Shown one piece after another: positions 1,627 through 25,851 of a stretch of DNA of 33,322 nt. The notes beneath the pieces are model-generated. The model saw only the letters and a program-made list of their open reading frames with translations, was not told the DNA's origin and searched no databases. This stretch comes from Litoreibacter sp. Lineage in GTDB: Bacteria > Pseudomonadota > Alphaproteobacteria > Rhodobacterales > Rhodobacteraceae. The stretch covers positions 1 to 33,322 of the forward strand of contig JAPORH010000203.1 in the NCBI GenBank assembly GCA_026710325.1, read 5' to 3'. Each line of letters opens with the position of its first letter. The first letter of the stretch is position 1. Made by a program: the position numbers and the translations under genes.

Positions 1627-2937
1627 TTACTCCCCCCGCGTTGCGTCCCGCAAAAAAGCGATCAGATCGGCGCGGTCCTGCGCTCCCGCGATCACCTGCA
1701 TCGGCATCTTGGAGCCGGGAATGTAGTGGTCCGGCCCCTCGTCGAATAATGCATCAATTGTCTCGCCGCTCCAAATGATCTCTGATCCGTCCAGCGTGTC
1801 GGAATAGAGATAGCCCGGCACGGTGCCCGCGCGGCGCCCGAAAACCTTATGCAATGTCGGACCCGCTTTGCGCGATGGTCCGGCCTCAAGCGTATGGCAA
1901 ATAGAGCATTTGCGCATGAATTGCCGCTCGCCATTGGGCATGGTGGCTGCCTCCCGCAGGAAGCTGCGGTCCCCGCTGATCCCAGGCTCAAACTCCGTAA
2001 GCGACGCCACAGGCCAGGCGTAGATCACATCATCGAGCCCGCCCGCGTAGATCGTCTTTCCATCCGGCGAAAAGGCCAGCGCCCAAACGGGCCCCTGCCG
2101 CGCAGCGCGGAAATCGCGGGTGATGCGCCATTCATTCGTGTCGATCATCATGATGAAGCCATGCCCGTCCCCCACGGCAAGTTGCCCGGTGTCTTCGTGA
2201 TAGGCCATGGCCAGAATGGGCCTGCGGTCGAGGGTGAAATCGGCGATTTCTTCGCCGTCAAGCGTCATGACCCGCGTCCCGCCATCAACGGCGCCATATG
2301 CGATCCAATCGCCGCCCACGATGAGCTTGTTGATGCCAAAGCCGTGGGTCACTAGCACGCGGGAGGACGGGTTGTCCCAAGGCCCCTCCCACGCGCGGAT
2401 CGTCCCGTCCGACGAGGTCGAAAGCAAACCGCCGCCCGGCGCAAACCGCACATCAGTCACGTTGGAGCGGTGACCAAGAAGTTCGCGCGTCAGTACCAGG
2501 CCGGGCGTGGCCAGAGTGCCCAAAAGCTCCATGAGCCGAAGAGACCCGTCCCAGCTGGCCGTCGCAATCCGGCCGCTTTCCGCGTCATAGGCAATACCCG
2601 CAACTTTCCCTTGATGCTTGGTCAGCTCAAATGGTCTATCCAGCGCCGGATGCCACAGCAAAACCCGGAAATCATCGCTGCCAGAAATGAGCGCCGGAGC
2701 TTGGCTATAGTTCAAAGAAATAACGGCGGCGTCATGCCCTTCTAACCACTCCGGCACACCATCCGTCCAAAGCCCAAGGGAATTGTCAAAGCTGGCCGAC
2801 GCCACCTGCCCCTCAGGCGACACGGCGAGCCCCATGATCGGGCCGCCATGTCCCTTCAAGGTCGTAAACTCCTGCGCCTGCGCGCCCACGCTTATGCTTA
2901 GGCTCATGAGCGCAACGCATGCCAAAGCACGCAGCAT
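1627..2937 (-). CDS. Secreted WD40-repeat protein with C-terminal cytochrome c domain
   Basis: This is a 436-residue protein with a Sec signal peptide (MLRALACVALMSLSISVGAQAQ). Residues about 23-325 are WD40-like beta-propeller repeats, visible as recurring GH...V..LA.SP.G...SAS.D.S...W units. The last 93 residues form a class I cytochrome c: heme site CSICH (344-348), GP.L..VFGR and an axial Met candidate in GSKMPM (about 411). It should therefore be a periplasmic electron carrier or heme-binding scaffold. It lies four bases after fdhC in the fdh operon, which suggests that it takes electrons from the FDH cytochrome b or presents a partner to it. Propeller-cytochrome fusions occur in other bacterial oxidoreductases; the role of this one is inference. 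Confidence 0.88.
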   Translation of the reverse strand: MLRALACVALMSLSISVGAQAQEFTTLKGHGGPIMGLAVSPEGQVASASFDNSLGLWTDGVPEWLEGHDAAVISLNYSQAPALISGSDDFRVLLWHPALDRPFELTKHQGKVAGIAYDAESGRIATASWDGSLRLMELLGTLATPGLVLTRELLGHRSNVTDVRFAPGGGLLSTSSDGTIRAWEGPWDNPSSRVLVTHGFGINKLIVGGDWIAYGAVDGGTRVMTLDGEEIADFTLDRRPILAMAYHEDTGQLAVGDGHGFIMMIDTNEWRITRDFRAARQGPVWALAFSPDGKTIYAGGLDDVIYAWPVASLTEFEPGISGDRSFLREAATMPNGERQFMRKCSICHTLEAGPSRKAGPTLHKVFGRRAGTVPGYLYSDTLDGSEIIWSGETIDALFDEGPDHYIPGSKMPMQVIAGAQDRADLIAFLRDATRGE

Positions 2938-4884: not shown

Positions 4885-7785
4885 TTACGCTGTCCAGATT
4901 TTGCAGAGAGTCGCTTTCGTCTCCTGCATCTGGGTGACTGAGTCATAACCGTAGGTCTGGGCGGTGTTGGTGCTTTCGCCCAACACATAAGGGTCGGCGC
5001 CATCGGGATACTTGTCCCGCTGGTCCTCGCCCTCGAAATGCCCGCCGAAGTGGAATGGCATGAAGGCGACGCCCTCACCCACCCGGTTGGTTACCATGGC
5101 CATAACCTTGACCTTGCCGCCTTCCGGCCCTTCGACCCACACTTGGCTTCCATCCCGCACGCCCAAATTGTTGGCATCGCGCGGGTTGATCTCCACAAAC
5201 ATATCCTGCTGCAGCTCGGCCAGCCACGGGTTGGACCGTGTCTCGTCGCCGCCGCCCTCATATTCGACCAAGCGGCCGGAGGTGAGGATGATCGGATAAT
5301 CCTTGGAGAAGTCGTTCTTCTGGATCGACGCATACAAGGTCGGCAGCCGGTAGGCGTAACGGTCCTCATATGTTGGGTAGTCGGCCACAAGGTCACGACG
5401 GTTGGTGTAAAGCGGCTCACGGTGCAGCGGCACTGGATCCGGGAAGGTCCAAACCACCGCCCGCGCCTTGGCGTTGCCGAAGGGCGCACACTCATGCTTG
5501 ATGGCCACCCGCTGGATGCCGCCCGAGAGGTCGGTTTTCCAGTTGGTCTTTGGACCGGCCACAGCGTCAATCGCCGCGCGCTCCTCAGCAGTCAGATCAC
5601 CATCCCAACCCAAGTCCATCAGCATCTGCATAGTGAATTCGGGATATCCGTCCTGGATTTCCGAGCCCACGCTGTAGACGCCTTCGGCCAACAGGTTGTC
5701 GCCGTCCCGCTCCACGCCGAAACGCGCACGGAAGGTCAAACCACCCTCTGAGACAGGTTTCGACATGTCATAGAGGTTTGGCGTGCCAGGGTGGTTCATC
5801 TCTGCGGTGCCCCAGCACGGCCATGGCAGACCGTAGTAGTCGCCATCTGCCGGGCCACCGATCGCTTGCAGCGTCGTGCGGTCAAACGTGTGCTGGTTCT
5901 CCATATGCAGCTTGATCCGCTCCGGAGATTGGCCCGTGTAGCCCACCGTCCACATGCCGCGGTTGATCTCGCGCAGCGTGTCTTCGATGTTTGGCGTCAC
6001 CCCGTCCTCTTCCATCGCAATGTTGCGGAAGAAGCGGTCGGCAAAACCGAACTTCTGCGCAAACATGCCGATGATCTCGTGATCGGGTTTGGACTCAAAG
6101 AGCGGGTCCACCACCTTTTCGCGCCATTGGATCGACCGGTTAGATGCGGTGACCGAGCCATAGGTCTCGAACTGGGTCGAGGCCGGCAGTAGGTACACCC
6201 CATCCGTGCGGTCATGCAGCACGGCCGAGACGGTTGGATAAGGGTCGATCACCACGAGCATATCGAGCTGCTCCATGGCGGTCTTCATTTCCTTCATCCG
6301 CGTCTGGGAGTTTGGCGCATGGCCCCAAAGCACCATGGCACGAACCTTGTTGGGGTTGTCCATGTTGTCAGGGTCTTCAAGCACGCCGTCGATCCAACGC
6401 GATACCGGGATGCCGGAGAGGTTCTGGAGGGATTTCTCCTTGCCTTCCTTGTCCTTGATCTTGTCGAACCGCGCGTTTAACCACTCGGCATCTTCGCCCC
6501 AAACCCGCGCCCAATGAGCCCAGGACCCTGCAGCCAGGCCGTAGTAGCCAGGCAGCGTGTGGGACAAAACACCAAGGTCGGTTGCACCTTGCACGTTGTC
6601 GTGGCCGCGGAAGATGTTGGTGCCGCCACCAGATGTACCCATGTTGCCAAGGGCCAACTGCAGCACGCAGTAAGCGCGTGTATTGTTGTTGCCGTTGGTG
6701 TGCTGGGTGCCACCCATGCACCAGATCACGGTGCCGGGGCGGTTATTGGCCAGCGTCCGGGCGACCCGCTTGAGCTGGGAGCCGGGAGTGCCGGTCACAC
6801 GCTCGACTTCTTCAGGCGTCCATTTGGCCACTTCTTCCTTGATCTGGTCCATGCCCCACACGCGGGTGCGGATGAACTCCTGATCTTCCCAACCATTGTC
6901 GAAGATATGCCACAGGATGCCCCACACCAGCGCCACGTCGGTGCCGGGACGGAAGCGGACATATTCATCCGCATGCGCGGCCGTACGCGTGAAGCGCGGG
7001 TCGCACACGATCACTGGCGCGTTGTTTTGTTCCTTGGCACGCAGAAGGTGCAAAAGCGAAACAGGGTGCGCCTCGGCAGGGTTGCCGCCGATGATGAAGA
7101 TGGCTTTCGAGTTGTGGATATCGTTGTAGCTGTTGGTCATGGCGCCGTAGCCCCATGTATTCGCAACACCCGCAACGGTGGTGGAGTGACAAATCCGGGC
7201 CTGGTGATCCACGTTATTCGTGCCCCAATAGGCCGCGAACTTTCGGAACAGGTAGGCCTGCTCATTGTTGTGCTTGGCCGAGCCCAGCCAGTAGACGCTA
7301 TCAGGGCCGCTTTCGTCCCGGATATTCATCATACCGTCGCCGATCTCGTTGATCGCCTGCTCCCATGAGATGCGCTTCCACTCACCACCCTCTTTCTTCA
7401 TCGGGTATTTGAGGCGGCGCTCGCCATGGGCGTGCTCGCGCACTGCCGCGCCCTTGGCGCAATGCGCACCGAGGTTGAACGGGCTGTCCCAGCCGGGCTC
7501 CTGGCCCGTCCAGACGCCGTCCTGAACTTCGGCCACAACGGTGCAGCCGACAGAGCAGTGCGTACATACGGATTTCTTCAATTCGACCGCGCCGACAGCG
7601 GCAGCACCTGCCGCATTGGCCTGTTGCACCGTACCGCCTGTCGCGGCAATCGCCGCCAGACCCCCGATGGCCAGGCCCGACCCGCGCAGAAACGCGCGGC
7701 GGTCGACCGAGGTGTTGCTCACCTCAGACAGGATCGAAGTCCGCTGGGGGCGTCTCGCAACCCCATTGGTCTTTTTCCTAAGCAT
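4885..7785 (-). CDS. fdhA: Formate dehydrogenase catalytic subunit (Mo/W-bisMGD, Tat-exported)
   Basis: This 966-residue protein oxidises formate to CO2 at a bis-MGD molybdenum or tungsten centre. The N-terminus carries a Tat signal (VDRRAFLRG, residues 28-35, then a hydrophobic stretch to about 60), so the enzyme is periplasmic. A [4Fe-4S] site is formed by C74, C77, C81 and C109. The catalytic residue is Cys199 followed by His200 (ARICHSTTVAGV), where the E. coli FDH-N enzyme has selenocysteine; no in-frame TGA is needed. The C-terminal region has the molybdopterin-dinucleotide binding fold (about 830-966). The start is fixed by AGGGAGGAAAGC upstream of ATG 7785. The tup tungstate transporter in the same island suggests tungsten as the metal, which is inference. 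Confidence 0.96.
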   Translation of the reverse strand: MLRKKTNGVARRPQRTSILSEVSNTSVDRRAFLRGSGLAIGGLAAIAATGGTVQQANAAGAAAVGAVELKKSVCTHCSVGCTVVAEVQDGVWTGQEPGWDSPFNLGAHCAKGAAVREHAHGERRLKYPMKKEGGEWKRISWEQAINEIGDGMMNIRDESGPDSVYWLGSAKHNNEQAYLFRKFAAYWGTNNVDHQARICHSTTVAGVANTWGYGAMTNSYNDIHNSKAIFIIGGNPAEAHPVSLLHLLRAKEQNNAPVIVCDPRFTRTAAHADEYVRFRPGTDVALVWGILWHIFDNGWEDQEFIRTRVWGMDQIKEEVAKWTPEEVERVTGTPGSQLKRVARTLANNRPGTVIWCMGGTQHTNGNNNTRAYCVLQLALGNMGTSGGGTNIFRGHDNVQGATDLGVLSHTLPGYYGLAAGSWAHWARVWGEDAEWLNARFDKIKDKEGKEKSLQNLSGIPVSRWIDGVLEDPDNMDNPNKVRAMVLWGHAPNSQTRMKEMKTAMEQLDMLVVIDPYPTVSAVLHDRTDGVYLLPASTQFETYGSVTASNRSIQWREKVVDPLFESKPDHEIIGMFAQKFGFADRFFRNIAMEEDGVTPNIEDTLREINRGMWTVGYTGQSPERIKLHMENQHTFDRTTLQAIGGPADGDYYGLPWPCWGTAEMNHPGTPNLYDMSKPVSEGGLTFRARFGVERDGDNLLAEGVYSVGSEIQDGYPEFTMQMLMDLGWDGDLTAEERAAIDAVAGPKTNWKTDLSGGIQRVAIKHECAPFGNAKARAVVWTFPDPVPLHREPLYTNRRDLVADYPTYEDRYAYRLPTLYASIQKNDFSKDYPIILTSGRLVEYEGGGDETRSNPWLAELQQDMFVEINPRDANNLGVRDGSQVWVEGPEGGKVKVMAMVTNRVGEGVAFMPFHFGGHFEGEDQRDKYPDGADPYVLGESTNTAQTYGYDSVTQMQETKATLCKIWTA

Positions 7786-10271: not shown

Positions 10272-12221
10272 ATGCCTAAGTCATTGATTACATGCGACTG
10301 TTTGGGCAGTCAGCAGGTCGACGCAGATGCACTGTCGGACAGCACCGGCCTTGATGTCCGCCCCCCCTGCACCGCCCTCTGCACAACTCAGATCGACAAG
10401 GCGGCCGAGGCCCTTCAAGCCGGTGATGCAATTTTTTGTTGCACGCAGGAGGCGCGCACCTTCGAAGCCCTTGCCGACGAATTGGGGGTAGAGGCCCCCC
10501 CGACCCTCGACCTGCGCGACCGGGCCGGTTGGACCGATGACACGGCCTCCACCCTACCCAAAATGTCCGCGCTGATAGCAGAGGCGATGCTGCCCGCAGC
10601 CCCCGCCAAGACGCTCGACGTCGTCTCGGAAGGGCTCTGCCTGATCCTTGGCCCTGCTGACACCGCACTCGCGGCGGCGGAACAGCTCTCCGATCACCTT
10701 GGCGTCACCGTGCTACTCGACAACGCCGAAGAGCTGCCTGACACCCGCGATTTCGACGTCATCATCGGCAAGCTGCGCAGCGCCACCGGCGCGCTCGGCC
10801 AATTCGCCTTACGCATCGCCCAGCTGCAAATGATCGAGCCCGGCGGGCGCGGCGGCTTCACCTTGTCCGAGCCACGCGATGGCGGGGCGTCGGAATGCGA
10901 TATCGTGCTCGACCTGCGCGGTACCGATCCGCTTTTCCCCGCGCATGAAAAGCGCGAGGGGTATCTGCGCGCCGATCCCTCCCATGCGCCCTCGGTCGCT
11001 GCAGCGGTCATGGCCGCGTCCCACCTCACAGGAACATTCGAAAAGCCGCTATATGTCAGGGTCGAACCACTCCTTTGCGCCCATTCCCGGGCGGAACAAA
11101 CCGGTTGCACCCGATGCCTTGAACTGTGTCCCACCGGCGCGATCACGCCTGCAGGCGAGCATGTCAGCATTGACCCGATGATCTGCGCGGGCTGCGGGGC
11201 GTGTTCTGCCGCCTGCCCCTCGGGCGCTGTTAGCTATGACGCGCCTGCCGTCGACCTGACGATGCGCCGCGTCCAGACGCTGGCCAAAGCTTACTTGGAC
11301 GCGGGCGGCACCGCGCCCCGCCTGTTGGCCCATGACGCCCATGGGGCTGAGATGATCCGGCTCCTCGCGCGCCACGGCACGGGCCTGCCTGCAGATGTGA
11401 TCCCGCTGGAAATGTCTGCCATAGGTGCCTTCGGCCACGCGGAGGCGATCGCCGCGCTCGCGGCGGGGTTTGCGCATGTGACGATCCTGCCCGGCCCCGG
11501 CGCGGATCGCGATGCATTGAACGCACAGACAGCGCTCGCCACCGCCATCGCAGGGGAAAACCGCATCTCCCTGCTCGACACCTCGGACCCCGACGCACTC
11601 GGCGAAACGCTTCAAAGTGTTCAAGCACCAGCCCCGGTCGAAACCCCGGTCCGCCCCATGGGCACGCGCCGCCAGATCACCCGCCAGGCCGCCCGCGCCC
11701 TGCACCCTGAGACCGAGGCAATCGACCTGCCCGCAGGCGCTCCCTATGGCGCGGTACTCGTCGATACCGACAGCTGCACCCTCTGCCTGTCTTGCGTCTC
11801 GCTCTGCCCGGCGGGGGCGCTTGGCGACAACCCCGACAAGCCGCAGCTACGCTTTCAGGAAGACGCGTGCTTACAATGTGGGCTCTGCGCCTCGGTCTGC
11901 CCGGAGGACGCGATCACCTATGAACCCCGCCTCAACCTGACCGAAGCCGCGCTGCGCCAAGAAGTCCTAAACGAGGAAGAGCCCTTCGCCTGTATCGAAT
12001 GCGGCGTTCTCTTTGGGTCCAAATCCGCGATCGACCGCATCACCGAAAAGCTGACCGGGCATTCCATGTTCTCCGACCCGGAAAAGCTCAAGATGATCCA
12101 GATGTGCGACAATTGCCGCGTAAACGCCCAGTATCATTCGGAAAACAACCCGTTTGCGGCAGGCGAGCGCCCGCGCCCGCGCACCACCGATGACTATTTC
12201 TCAGACCGCAAGGATCACTGA
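10272..12221 (+). CDS. Polyferredoxin-type 4Fe-4S protein of the fdh island
   Basis: This 649-residue cytoplasmic protein has no signal or membrane helix. The N-terminus has cysteines C8, C10, C33, C37, C56 and C57, resembling the Cys-rich start of HdrA/MvhD-like electron-transfer proteins. Two ferredoxin sites follow at about 279-320 (CTRCLELCPTGAI, CAGCGACSAACPSGAV) and two more at about 500-550 (CTLCLSCVSLCPAGAL, CLQCGLCASVCPEDAI). A C-terminal CIECG and CDNC add another possible metal site. It is likely an electron carrier or a redox helper for FDH maturation. Proteins of this layout recur beside fdh in alphaproteobacteria but have no proven function that I know of. The GGGGAGGA site fixes the start. 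The last seven bases overlap the convergent cytochrome gene. Confidence 0.85.
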   Translation: MPKSLITCDCLGSQQVDADALSDSTGLDVRPPCTALCTTQIDKAAEALQAGDAIFCCTQEARTFEALADELGVEAPPTLDLRDRAGWTDDTASTLPKMSALIAEAMLPAAPAKTLDVVSEGLCLILGPADTALAAAEQLSDHLGVTVLLDNAEELPDTRDFDVIIGKLRSATGALGQFALRIAQLQMIEPGGRGGFTLSEPRDGGASECDIVLDLRGTDPLFPAHEKREGYLRADPSHAPSVAAAVMAASHLTGTFEKPLYVRVEPLLCAHSRAEQTGCTRCLELCPTGAITPAGEHVSIDPMICAGCGACSAACPSGAVSYDAPAVDLTMRRVQTLAKAYLDAGGTAPRLLAHDAHGAEMIRLLARHGTGLPADVIPLEMSAIGAFGHAEAIAALAAGFAHVTILPGPGADRDALNAQTALATAIAGENRISLLDTSDPDALGETLQSVQAPAPVETPVRPMGTRRQITRQAARALHPETEAIDLPAGAPYGAVLVDTDSCTLCLSCVSLCPAGALGDNPDKPQLRFQEDACLQCGLCASVCPEDAITYEPRLNLTEAALRQEVLNEEEPFACIECGVLFGSKSAIDRITEKLTGHSMFSDPEKLKMIQMCDNCRVNAQYHSENNPFAAGERPRPRTTDDYFSDRKDH

Positions 12222-12952
12222 TGCTCGAGCGGTTGACCCAAATCGGCGGCGGCCATAGCCGCGACATAGGCCATCAGGGCCTCCAACTCGTCGATATCAA
12301 GCTCAATGGGCGATATCGGAGACGGCCGATTGATTGGAAACGGATCGGTTACGTCGGTGATTTGGGTGAAAGCCGGGTGCGGGTTCAGCACGTAAAAGGC
12401 GGCGAACCGCTCCTCCCAATCTGCCAGCGCGCGCAGCACACTGAAGCTGGGCGTAGAGCCGATGCCCCAACCTGTGGTGGCTTTGTCGACCGCGTGGCAG
12501 CGCGTGCATTTCTCAACCGAAACTTTGTGCCCGAGCGCGGCATCGCCGTCGATGCTCACTTCGACAACTGCGCGTTCTTCGGCGACAGGCGGGCCAAAAG
12601 GTGCCACCCCATCCGGCGCAAAGCTCGCCAAAGTGCGCTGCCCGATATCAGACAGAAGCCAATCGGAGAGTTTTTTGGTACCGGAGTGATCGGCGTTTCG
12701 CAGATCGATGTGCCAGGTCTGCCCCAGCCCCGAAAACGCCGCTCGACCTGTCTCACCAAGCGCCAAATCTGCCGTTTCGGGACTGTCCACTTGTTCAATC
12801 CGCACCTGTGTTTTCAACGAAAACCGCGGCAGAATGAATTTCAGAATGCCGCTGTCTACCAGAGCCTCAGGCGCATGCAGCCGCACCAGCCGATCATCGG
12901 CAAGGGCCGCCCAAGGCAAGCACAACATCAAGATCAAAGCGCGCCACATCAT
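12215..12952 (-). CDS. Periplasmic c-type cytochrome with N-terminal binding-protein-like segment
   Basis: This 245-residue protein has a signal peptide (MMWRALILMLCLPWAALA). Its heme site is CTRCH (149-153) within a cytochrome c domain running to about 235. No Met in a typical axial position follows; H192 (NPHPAF) is a candidate sixth ligand. Residues 22-122 are unusual. RLHAPEALVDSGILKFILPRF resembles the first strand and helix of TupA/ModA-like binding proteins, and KKLSDWLLSDIGQRTLASF with GVAPFGPP resembles their C-terminal helix and tail. The middle of a normal binding protein is missing. It runs opposite to the genes on both sides: it converges with the ferredoxin gene and is divergent from DUF6494. 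Confidence 0.85.
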   Translation of the reverse strand: MMWRALILMLCLPWAALADDRLVRLHAPEALVDSGILKFILPRFSLKTQVRIEQVDSPETADLALGETGRAAFSGLGQTWHIDLRNADHSGTKKLSDWLLSDIGQRTLASFAPDGVAPFGPPVAEERAVVEVSIDGDAALGHKVSVEKCTRCHAVDKATTGWGIGSTPSFSVLRALADWEERFAAFYVLNPHPAFTQITDVTDPFPINRPSPISPIELDIDELEALMAYVAAMAAADLGQPLEHQ

Positions 12953-13011
12953 TGGGCAAGCCTAGGCGCGCGACCCGCATCCCGTCAATCTCAGCAAAAC
13001 GGAGCAGAAAA

Positions 13012-13203
13012 ATGAGCGATGATTTCAACATGTCCATGCGCAAATTCCTCAAGCAGGTGGGCGTCACCTCCCAGCAGGCGATTGAGGAGGCCGTGCGCGC
13101 AGCCGACGGCAGCGGCAAAACCTACGCGGTCAAAGCCGTGGTCACGATCGAGGAGCTCGGCATGAGCCACGAGGTCACCGGCACGATCTCGGGCGGGGAA
13201 TAA
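13012..13203 (+). CDS. DUF6494 family small protein
   Basis: This 63-residue soluble protein starts at ATG 13012 behind GGAGCAGAAA; an upstream in-frame extension lacks a ribosome site and would run into the cytochrome start. MSDDFNMSMRKFLKQVGVTS.QAIEEAVR is the conserved helix block of DUF6494, followed by a small beta sheet (TYAVKAVVTIEEL). The function is unknown. It begins the rightward group with mrp, the ligase-like gene and the DUF6505-like gene, with only five bases to mrp, so it may be a client or partner of the Mrp ATPase. Confidence 0.85.
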   Translation: MSDDFNMSMRKFLKQVGVTSQQAIEEAVRAADGSGKTYAVKAVVTIEELGMSHEVTGTISGGE

Positions 13204-15482: not shown

Positions 15483-16286
15483 CTACTCTTTAGTGACCGC
15501 GTTAAACACAAACAATGTTTCGCCCGCGAGCTGGTAGCTATCAATCAACTCACCTGCGCGAGTCGAGGCAAGCCACTCCTCAAGCTTCGCGGACAACTCC
15601 GCCTTCACATGTCCATGCACCTCCGGGTTCACCGCCAAATAGGCATATTGGTTGAACAAAACCGGGTCTCCTGCATAAAGCAGCGAAAGATCGCCCTTAT
15701 TGCCAAAATTCAGCCAGCTGGCACGGTCCGACAGGATGTAGCCGCCGAGGCCCACGGCGGTGTTCAGCGCGGCACCCATGCCCGCGCCGACCTCATTGTA
15801 CCAACCTGCCGCCGGCACGCCACCCGCGCTTTCCCAAAGGCTCACCTCTTTCTTATGGGTCCCGCTATCATCGCCCCGGCTGACAAACCGTGCCTCGGCG
15901 GCGGCAATCCGGCTCAAGGCCTCAGCTGCACTGCTCGCGTCCGCAACGCCTGCCGGGTCCGCCGCAGGGCCGATGACCACGAAATCATTATACATGATCT
16001 CCCGCCGATGCGTGGCAAAGCCGTCGGCCACAAATGCCTCCTCCGCCGCGCGGGAATGCACGAGGATCGCGTCGACATCGCCCGCGCGCCCCAATCGCAG
16101 TGCTTGGCCCGTGCCTACGACTAGCAATTGCACCTCCAGATCGAGATCCGCTTCTATCTCCGGCAACAGCACATCCGCCAACCCGGAATTGTGAAAAGAG
16201 GTCGTCACCGCCATGCGCATGCTGTCCGCCGCCTGCGCGCCACTTGCCAAGACAAATCCCAAAACCACCAGCAACCGCATCATCAT
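15483..16286 (-). CDS. tupA: Tungstate ABC transporter, substrate-binding protein
   Basis: This 267-residue periplasmic protein has a signal peptide (to about AQA, residue 19). It shows the TupA signatures: TTS at 28-30 (AVTTSFHNSGL), DAILVHSR, and SRGDDSGTHKKE at 136-147, the residues that coordinate tungstate in characterised TupA proteins. TupA has very high affinity and prefers tungstate to molybdate. It is the last gene of tupB-tupC-tupA, its ATG overlapping the tupC stop. Presence beside fdhA suggests supply of tungsten to the FDH cofactor. Confidence 0.92.
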   Translation of the reverse strand: MMMRLLVVLGFVLASGAQAADSMRMAVTTSFHNSGLADVLLPEIEADLDLEVQLLVVGTGQALRLGRAGDVDAILVHSRAAEEAFVADGFATHRREIMYNDFVVIGPAADPAGVADASSAAEALSRIAAAEARFVSRGDDSGTHKKEVSLWESAGGVPAAGWYNEVGAGMGAALNTAVGLGGYILSDRASWLNFGNKGDLSLLYAGDPVLFNQYAYLAVNPEVHGHVKAELSAKLEEWLASTRAGELIDSYQLAGETLFVFNAVTKE

Positions 16287-21259: not shown

Positions 21260-21762
21260 AGCGCAATCCCTGCGACAGACACATCGGCCTGAAACTCTCG
21301 ACCAATTGCCACGATCCCGATCCGCGTGACGCGGTCGAGGTTTAACGGAATATCTGTCCGGTGCATCTCGAAACTGGTAAAAGGAAGATCATAACTCTGC
21401 CACCCTGGCCCCACGATAATTTCGGTCCGATAGCTGTGCCACGGCCGCGCAAGGTCGGACGTCCGCAGCCGGATGTCATAGGCCTCGCCATTCCCAGCGA
21501 GCTCCAATCGGACACCGGTCCATTCAGGTGCATCCGGAACGACAATATCGGTCGCCATCTGAACGAAGCCACCGTTGTTCTCCAGCGACACGTCGCCCGT
21601 CAGCCGCGAAGCCTCTTGGCCGTCCAAAAGCAGCGTGCGCACCGCGCCAGTGGACACGCCGCCCATCACCGTGTCGGCTACAAATTCCCACTCCGTTTCC
21701 AGCGCGCGTTCCTCAGCCATCGCAGTCCCGCATGTGATCAAAAGCGCCAAAAGCCATCTCAT
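21250..21762 (-). CDS. CIA30-domain periplasmic protein coupled to puuD
   Basis: The protein has 170 residues from ATG 21762, which overlaps the puuD stop (ATGA). A signal peptide (MRWLLALLITCGTAMA) is followed by one CIA30/NDUFAF1-like beta-sandwich: WEFVADTVMGGVSTG, L.G.VSLENNGGFVQMA, GVRLELAGNGEAYDIRLRTSD and WQSYDLPFTSF. This domain is best known from complex I assembly factor NDUFAF1. Here it is exported and tied to the urate hydroxylase, so it may help assemble PuuD or its heme domain. That role is inference. Confidence 0.82.
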   Translation of the reverse strand: MRWLLALLITCGTAMAEERALETEWEFVADTVMGGVSTGAVRTLLLDGQEASRLTGDVSLENNGGFVQMATDIVVPDAPEWTGVRLELAGNGEAYDIRLRTSDLARPWHSYRTEIIVGPGWQSYDLPFTSFEMHRTDIPLNLDRVTRIGIVAIGREFQADVSVAGIALYR

Positions 21763-22979
21763 CGCGCCGCCCGGTACCAAGCGGCCAACACCGCGCGCTC
21801 ATCGGCCCCAAGCTCGGTAATATTGGCGGGCGGCATAGCGTGGCTCACCGCCGATTGCAGATAAATCTGGCGGGCTTGCCGCGCAATGTCGCCATGGGTT
21901 TCCAGATAAACCCCCTTTGGCGCCCAATGCATACCGTCCCAAGCCGGTTCGCGCGCGTGGCACATAGAACAGCGCCCGATCACAATATCCGCGACATTCT
22001 CGAACCCTTCAGCCTCAACAAACATAAGCTCGGTCTCGGTCAAAGGCCGTGCCTCCGCCTCCTCCCAACTCTCACCGGTTCCAGCGGTTGATAGCCACGC
22101 AACCAGCAAGAACAGTATCACCGTAGCACCGATGGTCCAGCGCGGGCCCGAGCCTGAACTATGCATCGTGTTGAAGTAATGCCGGATCGTGACGCCCATC
22201 AGGAACACCATCGCCGCGATTACCCATGCATATTCCGTGGCAAATGCCAGCGGGTAATGGTTGCTCAGCATCAGGAAGATCACCGGCAAGGTGAGGTAGT
22301 TGTTATGAGTCGAGCGCAGTTTGGCGATCTTGCCGTATTTTGCATCGGGCGTCCGACCTGCCTTCAGGTCGGCAACCACGATCCTTTGGTTTGGCATGAT
22401 GATGAAAAACACGTTGGCCGACATGATCGTCGCCGTGAACGCGCCCAGATGCAGCATCGCGGCGCGGCCCGTGAAGAGCTGGTGGTACCCCCATGACATT
22501 GCGACGAGCATTACAAAAAGAAGCAACATCAATGCGGTAGGTTGCTCCCCTAATGCGGATTTGCACAGGAAATCATAGATAACCCATCCAACGGCAAGCG
22601 ATCCGGCGGAAATCAAAATCGCCTGCCACAAGGCCAAATCCGCCTTTGCTGGGTCGATCAAATACAGCTCAGCACCCGCCCAATAGACCACCATCAACAA
22701 GGCGGCCCCTGACAGCCAGGTAGAATAGCTCTCCCATTTAAACCAGGTCAGATGCTCCGGCATCGCGTCGGGTGCCACCAAGTACTTCTGGATATGGTAG
22801 AACCCCCCGCCGTGTACCTGCCATTCCTCCCCATCCGCGGGGCCCGGGATGTCGCGGTTGAGGCTCAGATCCAGTGCAATGAAATAGAAAGACGACCCGA
22901 TCCAGGCAATCGCCGTGATCACATGCAGCCAGCGGATCGCAAATTCAAACCAATCCCAAAGGATCGCAAGATCATACAT
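21759..22979 (-). CDS. puuD: Membrane urate hydroxylase with C-terminal cytochrome c domain
   Basis: This 406-residue protein of the PuuD family (urate to 5-hydroxyisourate) has an N-terminal integral membrane part with about eight helices (for example WLHVITAIAWIGSSFYFIAL), conserved His residues, and a C-terminal periplasmic cytochrome c domain with CSMCH (337-341) and an axial Met in HAMPPAN (about 382). Electrons from urate oxidation go to the respiratory chain through this heme rather than directly to oxygen. It is immediately followed by the CIA30-like gene and preceded by uraH with no gap. The starting codon abuts the uraH stop. Confidence 0.93.
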   Translation of the reverse strand: MYDLAILWDWFEFAIRWLHVITAIAWIGSSFYFIALDLSLNRDIPGPADGEEWQVHGGGFYHIQKYLVAPDAMPEHLTWFKWESYSTWLSGAALLMVVYWAGAELYLIDPAKADLALWQAILISAGSLAVGWVIYDFLCKSALGEQPTALMLLLFVMLVAMSWGYHQLFTGRAAMLHLGAFTATIMSANVFFIIMPNQRIVVADLKAGRTPDAKYGKIAKLRSTHNNYLTLPVIFLMLSNHYPLAFATEYAWVIAAMVFLMGVTIRHYFNTMHSSGSGPRWTIGATVILFLLVAWLSTAGTGESWEEAEARPLTETELMFVEAEGFENVADIVIGRCSMCHAREPAWDGMHWAPKGVYLETHGDIARQARQIYLQSAVSHAMPPANITELGADERAVLAAWYRAAR

Positions 22980-24657: not shown

Positions 24658-25215
24658 ATGTACACGTCACGCCCATCCTACGCTCAAACGCTTGGCATAG
24701 CCGCCATTTTTGCGCTTGGCAGCACGCCTGTACTGGCCGCGGATGCCGATCTTATCGCGGCGGCGCGCAGCACATTGGCGAGCGTTCAGGACAACTCATT
24801 CGATGCGGATCGCGAATATTGCGGCATGCTTGGGCGCAACCCGCAAGGCAATATCGTGGCGACACGGCCACGCAAGGGGCGCGAAGATAGCTGTCAGCCG
24901 CGATCCTTCTACAGTGATGATATCGAAACGCTGGCCTCGTTTCACACCCATGGCAGCCACCACCTTGAGGCCGATGCGGAGGTGCCATCCTCCGACGACT
25001 TCCTCGCAGATGAGGCGGAAGGCGTTATTGGTTTCGTCTCAACCCCCGGCGGCAGATTCTGGATTATCGAGCCTGAACTGAATCGCGTCCGCCAGATTTG
25101 TGGCCGTGATTGCCTTCCGAAAGACCCGGATTATGAACCCGTTTCCGAAGGCCGGGTGCGTGTCGAATATACACTAGAGCAGCTGCTTGACCGTGAGGCA
25201 GGTATTGACGACTAA
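24658..25215 (+). CDS. Secreted DUF4329 protein with JAMM-like motif, copy 1
   Basis: This 185-residue protein has a signal peptide (cut near PVLAADA, residue 28). The core has REYCGMLG, then SFHTHGSHH...VPSSDDF: a His-x-His followed by Ser...Asp as in JAMM/MPN metallopeptidases, with the Glu of REYCG as possible catalytic acid. GFVSTPGGRFWII and RQICGRDCLPKDP follow, with paired cysteines that suit an oxidising compartment. DUF4329 domains often occur as toxins or processing domains in larger proteins; here the domain stands alone and is exported. It has a paralogue immediately downstream. Confidence 0.75.
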   Translation: MYTSRPSYAQTLGIAAIFALGSTPVLAADADLIAAARSTLASVQDNSFDADREYCGMLGRNPQGNIVATRPRKGREDSCQPRSFYSDDIETLASFHTHGSHHLEADAEVPSSDDFLADEAEGVIGFVSTPGGRFWIIEPELNRVRQICGRDCLPKDPDYEPVSEGRVRVEYTLEQLLDREAGIDD

Positions 25216-25263
25216 GCAGGAATGTTCATCTATAAGGGCGGGGATATTGGGAGCAGCCGTTCT

Positions 25264-25851
25264 ATGAAGACTGCCGCAGCTTGCGCAACACTCGGTTTTT
25301 TTGCCGCTATCGGGCCCTGTCAGGCCGCGAGCGCAGCACTCGTTGAAAAAGCGAAAATGGCTCTGGCATCAATCCAGAATGCATCTTTTGTGGCAGATCG
25401 CGAGTATTGCGGGATGATCGGACTTACAGAGGCCAATGAGTTTATCGTTTCACCGGCACGCCGTGGCCGGACATCGGGCTGTGATCACCGGGGGTTTGCT
25501 GACCCGAGCATAACGCCGGTCGCCTCATACCACACGCATGGCGCTTTCCATCCGCTCTATGACAGTGAAGTGCCTTCCGTCGACGATATCGACATGGATT
25601 ATCACAATAAGGTGTTCGGATTTGTGGCAACGCCGGGCGGCCGCTTTTGGCTCGTCGACTATCGTTACCGCTCCGTGCATCAGCTCTGTGGGGTCGGTTG
25701 CCTGCCGCAAGACCCAACTTTTAAAGAGCATATGGCCGGTGAAATACCAGAGCATATGAGCCGACGCGAAATCGCAGCGCGCAAGAAAACCGGTGGCGCA
25801 AGAGAGCTCCGCGCGCGGATGCTAGCTGAGAACGGTTCGCAAGAAGATTGA
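25264..25851 (+). CDS. Secreted DUF4329 protein with JAMM-like motif, copy 2
   Basis: The protein has 195 residues from ATG 25264, chosen because it begins directly with a signal peptide (MKTAAACATLGFFAAIGPCQA) and GGGAG lies upstream; an ATG at 25222 would put a polar stretch before it. It shares REYCGMIG, SYHTHGAFH..Y.SEVPSVDD, GFVATPGGRFWLV and HQLCGVGCLPQDP with copy 1, so the pair is a tandem duplication. It has a longer basic C-terminal tail (SRREIAARKKTGGARELRARM). Its stop codon overlaps the -35 of the sit promoter. Confidence 0.75.
   Translation: MKTAAACATLGFFAAIGPCQAASAALVEKAKMALASIQNASFVADREYCGMIGLTEANEFIVSPARRGRTSGCDHRGFADPSITPVASYHTHGAFHPLYDSEVPSVDDIDMDYHNKVFGFVATPGGRFWLVDYRYRSVHQLCGVGCLPQDPTFKEHMAGEIPEHMSRREIAARKKTGGARELRARMLAENGSQED

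Follow-up and report, generated by a model that had tools for sequence, protein, structure and literature searches.

A class I cytochrome c joined to a single TupA-like lobe in a formate dehydrogenase island of Rhodobacteraceae

Many receptors and regulators make use of binding proteins as two-lobe modules. A single lobe of such a protein, joined to a heme domain, is encoded in a stretch of 33,322 nucleotides of Litoreibacter sp. DNA (contig JAPORH010000203.1, positions 1 to 33,322; hereafter the window), in an island of formate dehydrogenase (FDH) genes. The described systems closest to this fusion are the substrate-binding protein TupA and class I cytochrome c. According to excerpts of its published description (PMC5517513), TupA of D. 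alaskensis consists of a lobe A (residues 2-76 and 201-251) and a lobe B (residues 91-200), and its conserved site residues are Thr9-11, Ser12, His59, Arg118, Thr124 and Asp170. As regards formate dehydrogenase, excerpts of another paper (PMC4464133) describe a type of fdh operon in alphaproteobacteria that comprises DUF3305, DUF3306 and a DmsD-type chaperone. The window protein is a class I cytochrome c of exported type that has a TupA lobe A at its N-terminus: a signal peptide is followed by a domain of approximately 105 residues and then by the cytochrome (Table 1), and the first approximately 45 and last approximately 35 residues of the domain correspond, in the same order, to both ends of TupA. 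With TupA (5my5, 3lr1 and also 3muq) it shares sequence and the predicted fold of lobe A, including an SG-L--LLP-F signature at the start and a WL-S--G helix with a G--LF tail at the end. Unlike TupA, it lacks lobe B and the ligand motifs, is joined to a heme domain and is anatomically no transporter component. Both parts are of known kinds, and the joining of a class I cytochrome c to one TupA lobe appears to be new; among the matches listed from the open-licence literature, no earlier description of such a fusion was found. A single lobe that has lost its ligand site and is coupled to a heme domain, as encountered in many genera of one family, is a clear case for testing the capabilities of half a clam-shell fold. 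It also directs attention to a formate dehydrogenase with linked tungstate uptake, of which a periplasmic branch, either electron-transferring or regulatory, is as yet unstudied.

The window sequence alone reached merely E 0.24 against solved structures (tungstate-binding 3lr1, residues 20-70), and Pfam gave no relevant match to the N-terminal domain of the window protein and 20 homologues. Hence, a first-pass annotation made from the DNA alone, which had called the resemblance weak, was right for one sequence; it was not once homologue profiles were used. Indeed, when a profile of the N-domain built from 20 homologues was searched by hmmsearch against 177,635 distinct PDB sequences, the top match was 3muq, listed in the PDB as an uncharacterized protein (whole-sequence E 3.3e-6), and the second was the TupA protein 5my5 (whole-sequence E 1.3e-4), followed by 3cvg (E 2.5e-4, C-terminal stretch only) and 3lr1 (E 0.0019). 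Single stretches scored more weakly, with best independent E-values of 0.0025 (3muq) and 0.026 (5my5). Profile positions 4-53 and 72-95 aligned with residues 5-54 and 213-236 of the 3muq chain, and positions 11-50 and 73-106 with residues 33-72 and 240-273 of the 5my5 chain. These collinear matches bear out both segments (residues 22-55 and 93-122) that had been compared with TupA by eye. Between the two stretches lie 158 (3muq) or 167 (5my5) chain residues versus 18 or 22 profile positions; counted from these alignments, the net loss relative to TupA amounts to approximately 140-145 residues. The roughly 150 residues first proposed, including the SRGDDSGT loop, were thus lost indeed, in a slightly smaller number. 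The nearest known relatives of the N-domain are TupA proteins, and the original label 'TupA/ModA-like' is apt for TupA and, only in a broad sense, for ModA.

The first-pass annotation had suggested a comparison of hidden Markov models with TupA and a fold search, both of which agreed with this assignment. Alignment of an N-domain profile of 33 rows with seven TupA sequences by hhalign gave a probability of 94 and a score of 50.5, over the C-terminal stretch only, the N-terminal stretch being unaligned in that run; 50 column shuffles reached 24.5 at most, and the reversed profile 16. Similarly, a domain-only AlphaFold2 model built from four sequences (predicted local distance difference test score (pLDDT) 90.8 and predicted TM score (pTM) 0.80 for the best model, pLDDT 85.3 to 47.4 for the remaining four) had as its best Foldseek matches the type II binding proteins 3muq (rank 1, E 3.3e-3) and 5my5 (rank 2, E 6.5e-3, query TM 0.65). 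No Foldseek match of this model reached E ≤ 1e-3, and those below 5my5 were mostly LysR-type effector domains, which have a type II binding fold too. When run against 398 genomes of the phylum, the profile of the N-domain found 94 additional matches outside fusions, spread over 60 genomes; 31 of the matches outside fusions were of the N-terminal type, and 28 of these (in 24 genomes) had a C-terminal-type match in the same frame, 122-166 residues off. These frames were counted by profile match, and the 36 TupA-like proteins collected by BLAST that are used below come partly from them. That the resemblance to TupA reflects chance or convergence might be argued from the absent Pfam match, the best two Foldseek E-values of just 3e-3 to 7e-3 and the coverage of one of two stretches by hhalign; yet, the evidence from profiles, fold and collinearity all converges on TupA, which makes this explanation extremely improbable. 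Chance was ruled out by the column shuffles, the PDB-wide profile search and the collinearity. An ordinary cytochrome N-terminus was ruled out as well, for the segment is absent from cytochrome-only homologues. This was one of two findings that the first-pass annotation had named as fatal to its proposal; the other, a fold unrelated to type II binding proteins, was not borne out by the Foldseek ranking either. Sequence profiles, predicted fold and homologues therefore support the view of a TupA-type remnant joined to an fdh-island cytochrome, and more firmly than was thought at first.

The matched parts of 5my5 lie within lobe A, given the lobe boundaries in the excerpts of PMC5517513 and a chain numbering estimated to run approximately 22 above that of the paper. 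The fusion is not a two-lobe protein with a hinge, as lobe B is missing, including the residues that the same excerpts give as Arg118, Thr124 and Asp170. The TTS motif is invariant in the TupA proteins (36/36) and SRGDxSGT nearly so (one residue off in one protein). Neither TTS nor SRGD occurs in any of the 82 fusions, and the letters DSGT, wherever placed, occur in one. Residues 28-30, which replace TTS, are mostly Pro, then Pro, Ala or Glu, then Ala or Glu; one fusion of 82 has Thr or Ser at two of the three positions. Judged from these residues, it is very unlikely that the fusion lobe binds a ligand as TupA does. More generally, residual binding of a small ligand, by one lobe or by a dimer with a restored cleft, agrees with the retention of the predicted lobe fold and of an S/T-G pair after the old ligand loop, but both halves of the ligand site known from those excerpts are lost and the replacement residues vary among homologues, so that this possibility is given little credence. 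The residues kept from TupA look structural, namely Pro42 and Trp98 (each in 82/82 fusions and 36/36 TupA), Phe44 (81/82 and 27/36) and Gly104 (81/82 and 30/36). Arg43 and Lys47, in contrast, are found in all 82 fusions versus Arg in 2 and Lys in 9 of the 36 TupA proteins. The lobe is under purifying selection: its pairwise ratio of nonsynonymous to synonymous substitution rates (dN/dS) ranged from 0.11 to 0.40 in nine pairs and was saturated in a tenth, and these values are rough because several pairs, including that of the window, are near silent-site saturation. Together with the invariant Arg43 and Lys47, they speak for a function of the lobe.

As to the heme domain, the cytochrome part alone matched Pfam Cytochrom_C (PF00034) with 21.9 bits (cut-off 21.3), and the whole protein with 19.3 bits, below the cut-off. 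It shares this profile match and the CxxCH motif with class I cytochrome c; unlike the latter, it has no conserved distal Met and has the invariant His192 instead. From residue 154 on, no Met was common to all 82 homologues, which agrees with the initial view that the CTRCH domain lacks an obvious Met ligand; the richest Met column was 161 (57/80 rows, Gly in the window), followed by 233 (19/81), 218 (17/81) and 173 (14/82). His192 stands three residues ahead of the Met position in a distant cytochrome (L074), whose PHPQMP aligns with PHPAFT of the fusion, so that Phe occupies the place of this Met in 78 of the 82 homologues. The heme is probably not ligated by His/Met and would be either His/His or five-coordinate; His192 could supply the sixth ligand or could border an open site. 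A full-length AlphaFold2 model, in which residues 113-245, including the heme domain, were below pLDDT 50, was not used.

A match to the fusion was found in 76 of 198 genomes of the family. Two of these (G004 and G054) have the cytochrome only, and hence 74 genomes carry the fusion, in some cases cut at contig ends. Among 385 genomes of the class outside the family, the full fusion was present in one additional family (G561 and G484), with cytochrome-only matches in others, and all seven full-length domain matches among the 398 phylum genomes fell in the family of the window. Co-occurrence with fdhA and tup had also been proposed as a check. With respect to fdhA, 68 of the 76 matches lie within 10 kb of this gene, the remaining eight being the two cytochrome-only copies and six without an fdhA match on the same contig. 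FdhA was present in 73 of the 76 genomes with a match and TupA in all of them; such co-occurrence by genome ignores relatedness, and physical linkage is the better evidence. With respect to tup, TupA lies within 5.5 kb of the fused gene in 26 of the 74 genomes, at 5.5-20 kb in 16, and farther away or on another contig in 32; as it is within 20 kb in only 42 of 74, coupling to Tup in a single locus is not general. This bears on the idea of a lobe that competes with TupA for docking on the TupBC permease, the redox state of the heme throttling tungstate uptake for FDH. The resemblance to TupA, its presence in every genome with a match and its proximity in part of them are in line with this idea, but the 32 genomes with a distant TupA are not, and the presence of TupA says little since all 97 FdhA genomes have it, with or without the fusion; the idea is improbable. 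A shade more doubtful still is a role of the degenerate lobe as a TupBC decoy, by which the cytochrome would couple the redox state of the FDH branch to tungstate import; if true, metal import would be redox-gated, and half a binding protein would do the gating.

Thirteen neighbourhoods were compared as to the origin of the fusion. In L072 and L073, the fusion lies within an fdh island of another family. Cytochrome-only relatives adjoin fdh genes in L063, L064, L065, L068, L070 and L071; they have CxxCH, the subsequent ..I-STPSF and PH motifs and the island position in common with the fusion and, unlike the fusion, have no N-terminal lobe. TupA is also nearby in L063, L064 and L070. In the stretches viewed of L066, L069, L074 and L075, no cytochrome relative was seen, and in L067 the island genes are present and the cytochrome was not called. 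The fusion is probably the derived state, and it plausibly arose when part of a tupA, neighbouring or duplicated, was added to an island cytochrome. The binding-protein fold is reused in a related fdh island too, namely in an HTH_17-PBP_like regulator beside Tup genes (L088:14118-14996, minus strand), which differs from the fusion in that PBP_like is matched over almost its full length, the partner domain is DNA-binding and no heme motif was noted. Proteins with a start similar, by eye, to that of this regulator occur in L063 and L067.

The reading favoured here, with a little less than even confidence, is that the fusion serves the FDH3 island as an accessory redox protein, with the dead binding lobe as a docking module. 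The lobe would tether the cytochrome to a partner at the membrane, on its periplasmic side, either FDH3 itself or a neighbouring protein, and it may do so through a new basic face (Arg43, Lys47), leaving the old ligand cleft unused; the docked heme would then accept electrons from the formate dehydrogenase system or report its redox state. Alternatively, the lobe could be a passive scaffold, a relic of the fusion retained for stabilising or solubilising the cytochrome, with the heme domain doing all the work. The occurrence of cytochrome-only relatives in the same island fits a scaffold, as does the dN/dS of the lobe, which exceeds that of the heme domain in six of the nine pairs with values. 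However, Arg43 and Lys47 are invariant in spite of being atypical of TupA, and the lobe persists family-wide with dN/dS at or below 0.40 in those nine pairs; a mere scaffold is rather unlikely.

Several observations weigh against the docking of an accessory redox protein. No docking partner was identified, and it is not evident why a cytochrome c would be needed, because the gamma subunit of the dehydrogenase, a cytochrome b561-type protein, would serve quinone. Further, 24 of the 97 FdhA genomes have no match to the fusion, which speaks against a general need of formate dehydrogenase for it. In 12 neighbourhoods viewed in FdhA genomes without the fusion, the genes that flank it elsewhere adjoin in five (L076, L077, L081, L083 and L088), and a tree of 61 fdhA rows requires at least 11 switches between presence and absence of the fusion. 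FDH, consequently, does not need the fusion, whose gene is an accessory gene. The tree covers 61 of the 97 FdhA genomes, namely all with only one of the two island cytochromes considered (the fusion and a WD40-cytochrome), those with neither apart from G122, and 29 of the 59 with both; it also omits five genomes at 59-63% FdhA identity, and G004 and G054 were scored as without the fusion. Matches to the WD40-cytochrome with E ≤ 1e-60 occur in 65 of the 198 family genomes, with FdhA in every one. Its association with the fusion was promising in raw counts (Fisher p 8e-5 for 92 genomes and 1e-6 for 97 genomes, with G004 and G054 scored as present) and gave no signal on the fdhA tree, in five and eight supported independent pairs, so that a partnership of the two was dropped. 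Finally, the cytochrome-only genes of L065, L086 and L087 group with the fused genes, being as close to them as fused relatives are, and in a FastTree phylogeny they fall inside the fused group. A single fused clade was not rejected by the approximately unbiased (AU) test (p 0.53; 81 fused versus 11 cytochrome-only rows), on account of which a claim of secondary lobe loss in these three genes was withdrawn.

Table 1. Positions of the fusion gene, its parts and selected neighbouring genes in the window
Feature	Position	Strand	Basis or remark
Fusion protein gene, 245 amino acids	12215..12952	-	Open reading frame (ORF) and translation, homologues
Sec-type signal peptide, residues 1-18, cleavage after ..WAALA	12899..12952	-	Read by eye
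Single-lobe TupA-like domain, residues 20-124 (approximately 105 residues)	12581..12895	-	Profile search, predicted fold, homologues
First stretch, residues 22-66, N-terminus of TupA	12755..12889	-	PDB profile search, alignments
Second stretch, residues 90-122, C-terminal helix and tail of TupA	12587..12685	-	hhalign, PDB profile search, alignments
Class I cytochrome c domain, residues 133-245	12218..12556	-	Pfam Cytochrom_C
Heme attachment motif CTRCH, residues 149-153	12494..12508	-	Sequence; Cys149, Cys152 and His153 (CxxCH) in 82/82 homologues
His192, candidate sixth heme ligand (putative role)	12377..12379	-	Invariant, 82/82 homologues
WD40 propeller with C-terminal c-type cytochrome	1627-2937	-	Between FdhC and sigma-54 regulator
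Formate dehydrogenase alpha subunit	4885..7785	-	Annotation of the corresponding Sagittula sp. P11 island
4Fe-4S protein gene, convergent with fusion gene	10272..12221	+	3' ends overlap by 7 bases
Small divergent ORF, 60 bases from start of fusion gene	13012..13203	+	DUF6494 gene at the same place in the Sagittula island
Intact TupA-type substrate-binding protein	15483..16286	-	Pfam PBP_like_2; NCBIfam TupA model 183.3 bits, below cut-off of 400

The fusion gene is divergent from the small ORF and from genes for an Mrp-type ATPase, a biotin/lipoate ligase-like protein and a DUF6505 protein. Beyond the latter, the window contains TupA, an ABC ATPase, a permease and a kinase; the permease has no Pfam match and is presumably TupB-like, given its position. 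The first-pass annotation had placed TupA at 3 kb; the fusion gene, which lies on the minus strand, is 2.5 kb from it. In Sagittula sp. P11, the annotation of the corresponding island lists formate dehydrogenase alpha and FDH3 beta and gamma subunits, and the counterpart of the fusion is labelled hypothetical protein. Of five plasmid records with the fusion gene, four name its product 'hypothetical protein' and one 'c-type cytochrome'. The island in the window also holds a sensor kinase and a sigma-54 regulator, for which the fusion protein could be a periplasmic input; the first-pass annotation had proposed a sensor for the kinase as the alternative to docking on the Tup or Fdh system. This is highly improbable, however, as the kinase bears an sCache_3_3 sensor domain of its own, so that such an input is less needed, and L076 and L077 retain the kinase and the regulator without the fusion. 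A scan of positions 12100-13100 for promoters and terminators gave no signal above chance. In L083 (6772-8789, minus strand), the large 4Fe-4S protein of the island is split in two overlapping ORFs. Elsewhere in the window, a Urate_ox_N membrane protein (21759-22979, minus strand) has a C-terminal segment around CSMCH that weakly matches a cytochrome (E 0.03). Lastly, two similar adjoining small proteins (24658-25215 and 25222-25851, plus strand) display, by eye, apparent signal peptides and the motifs SFHTHG and SYHTHG.

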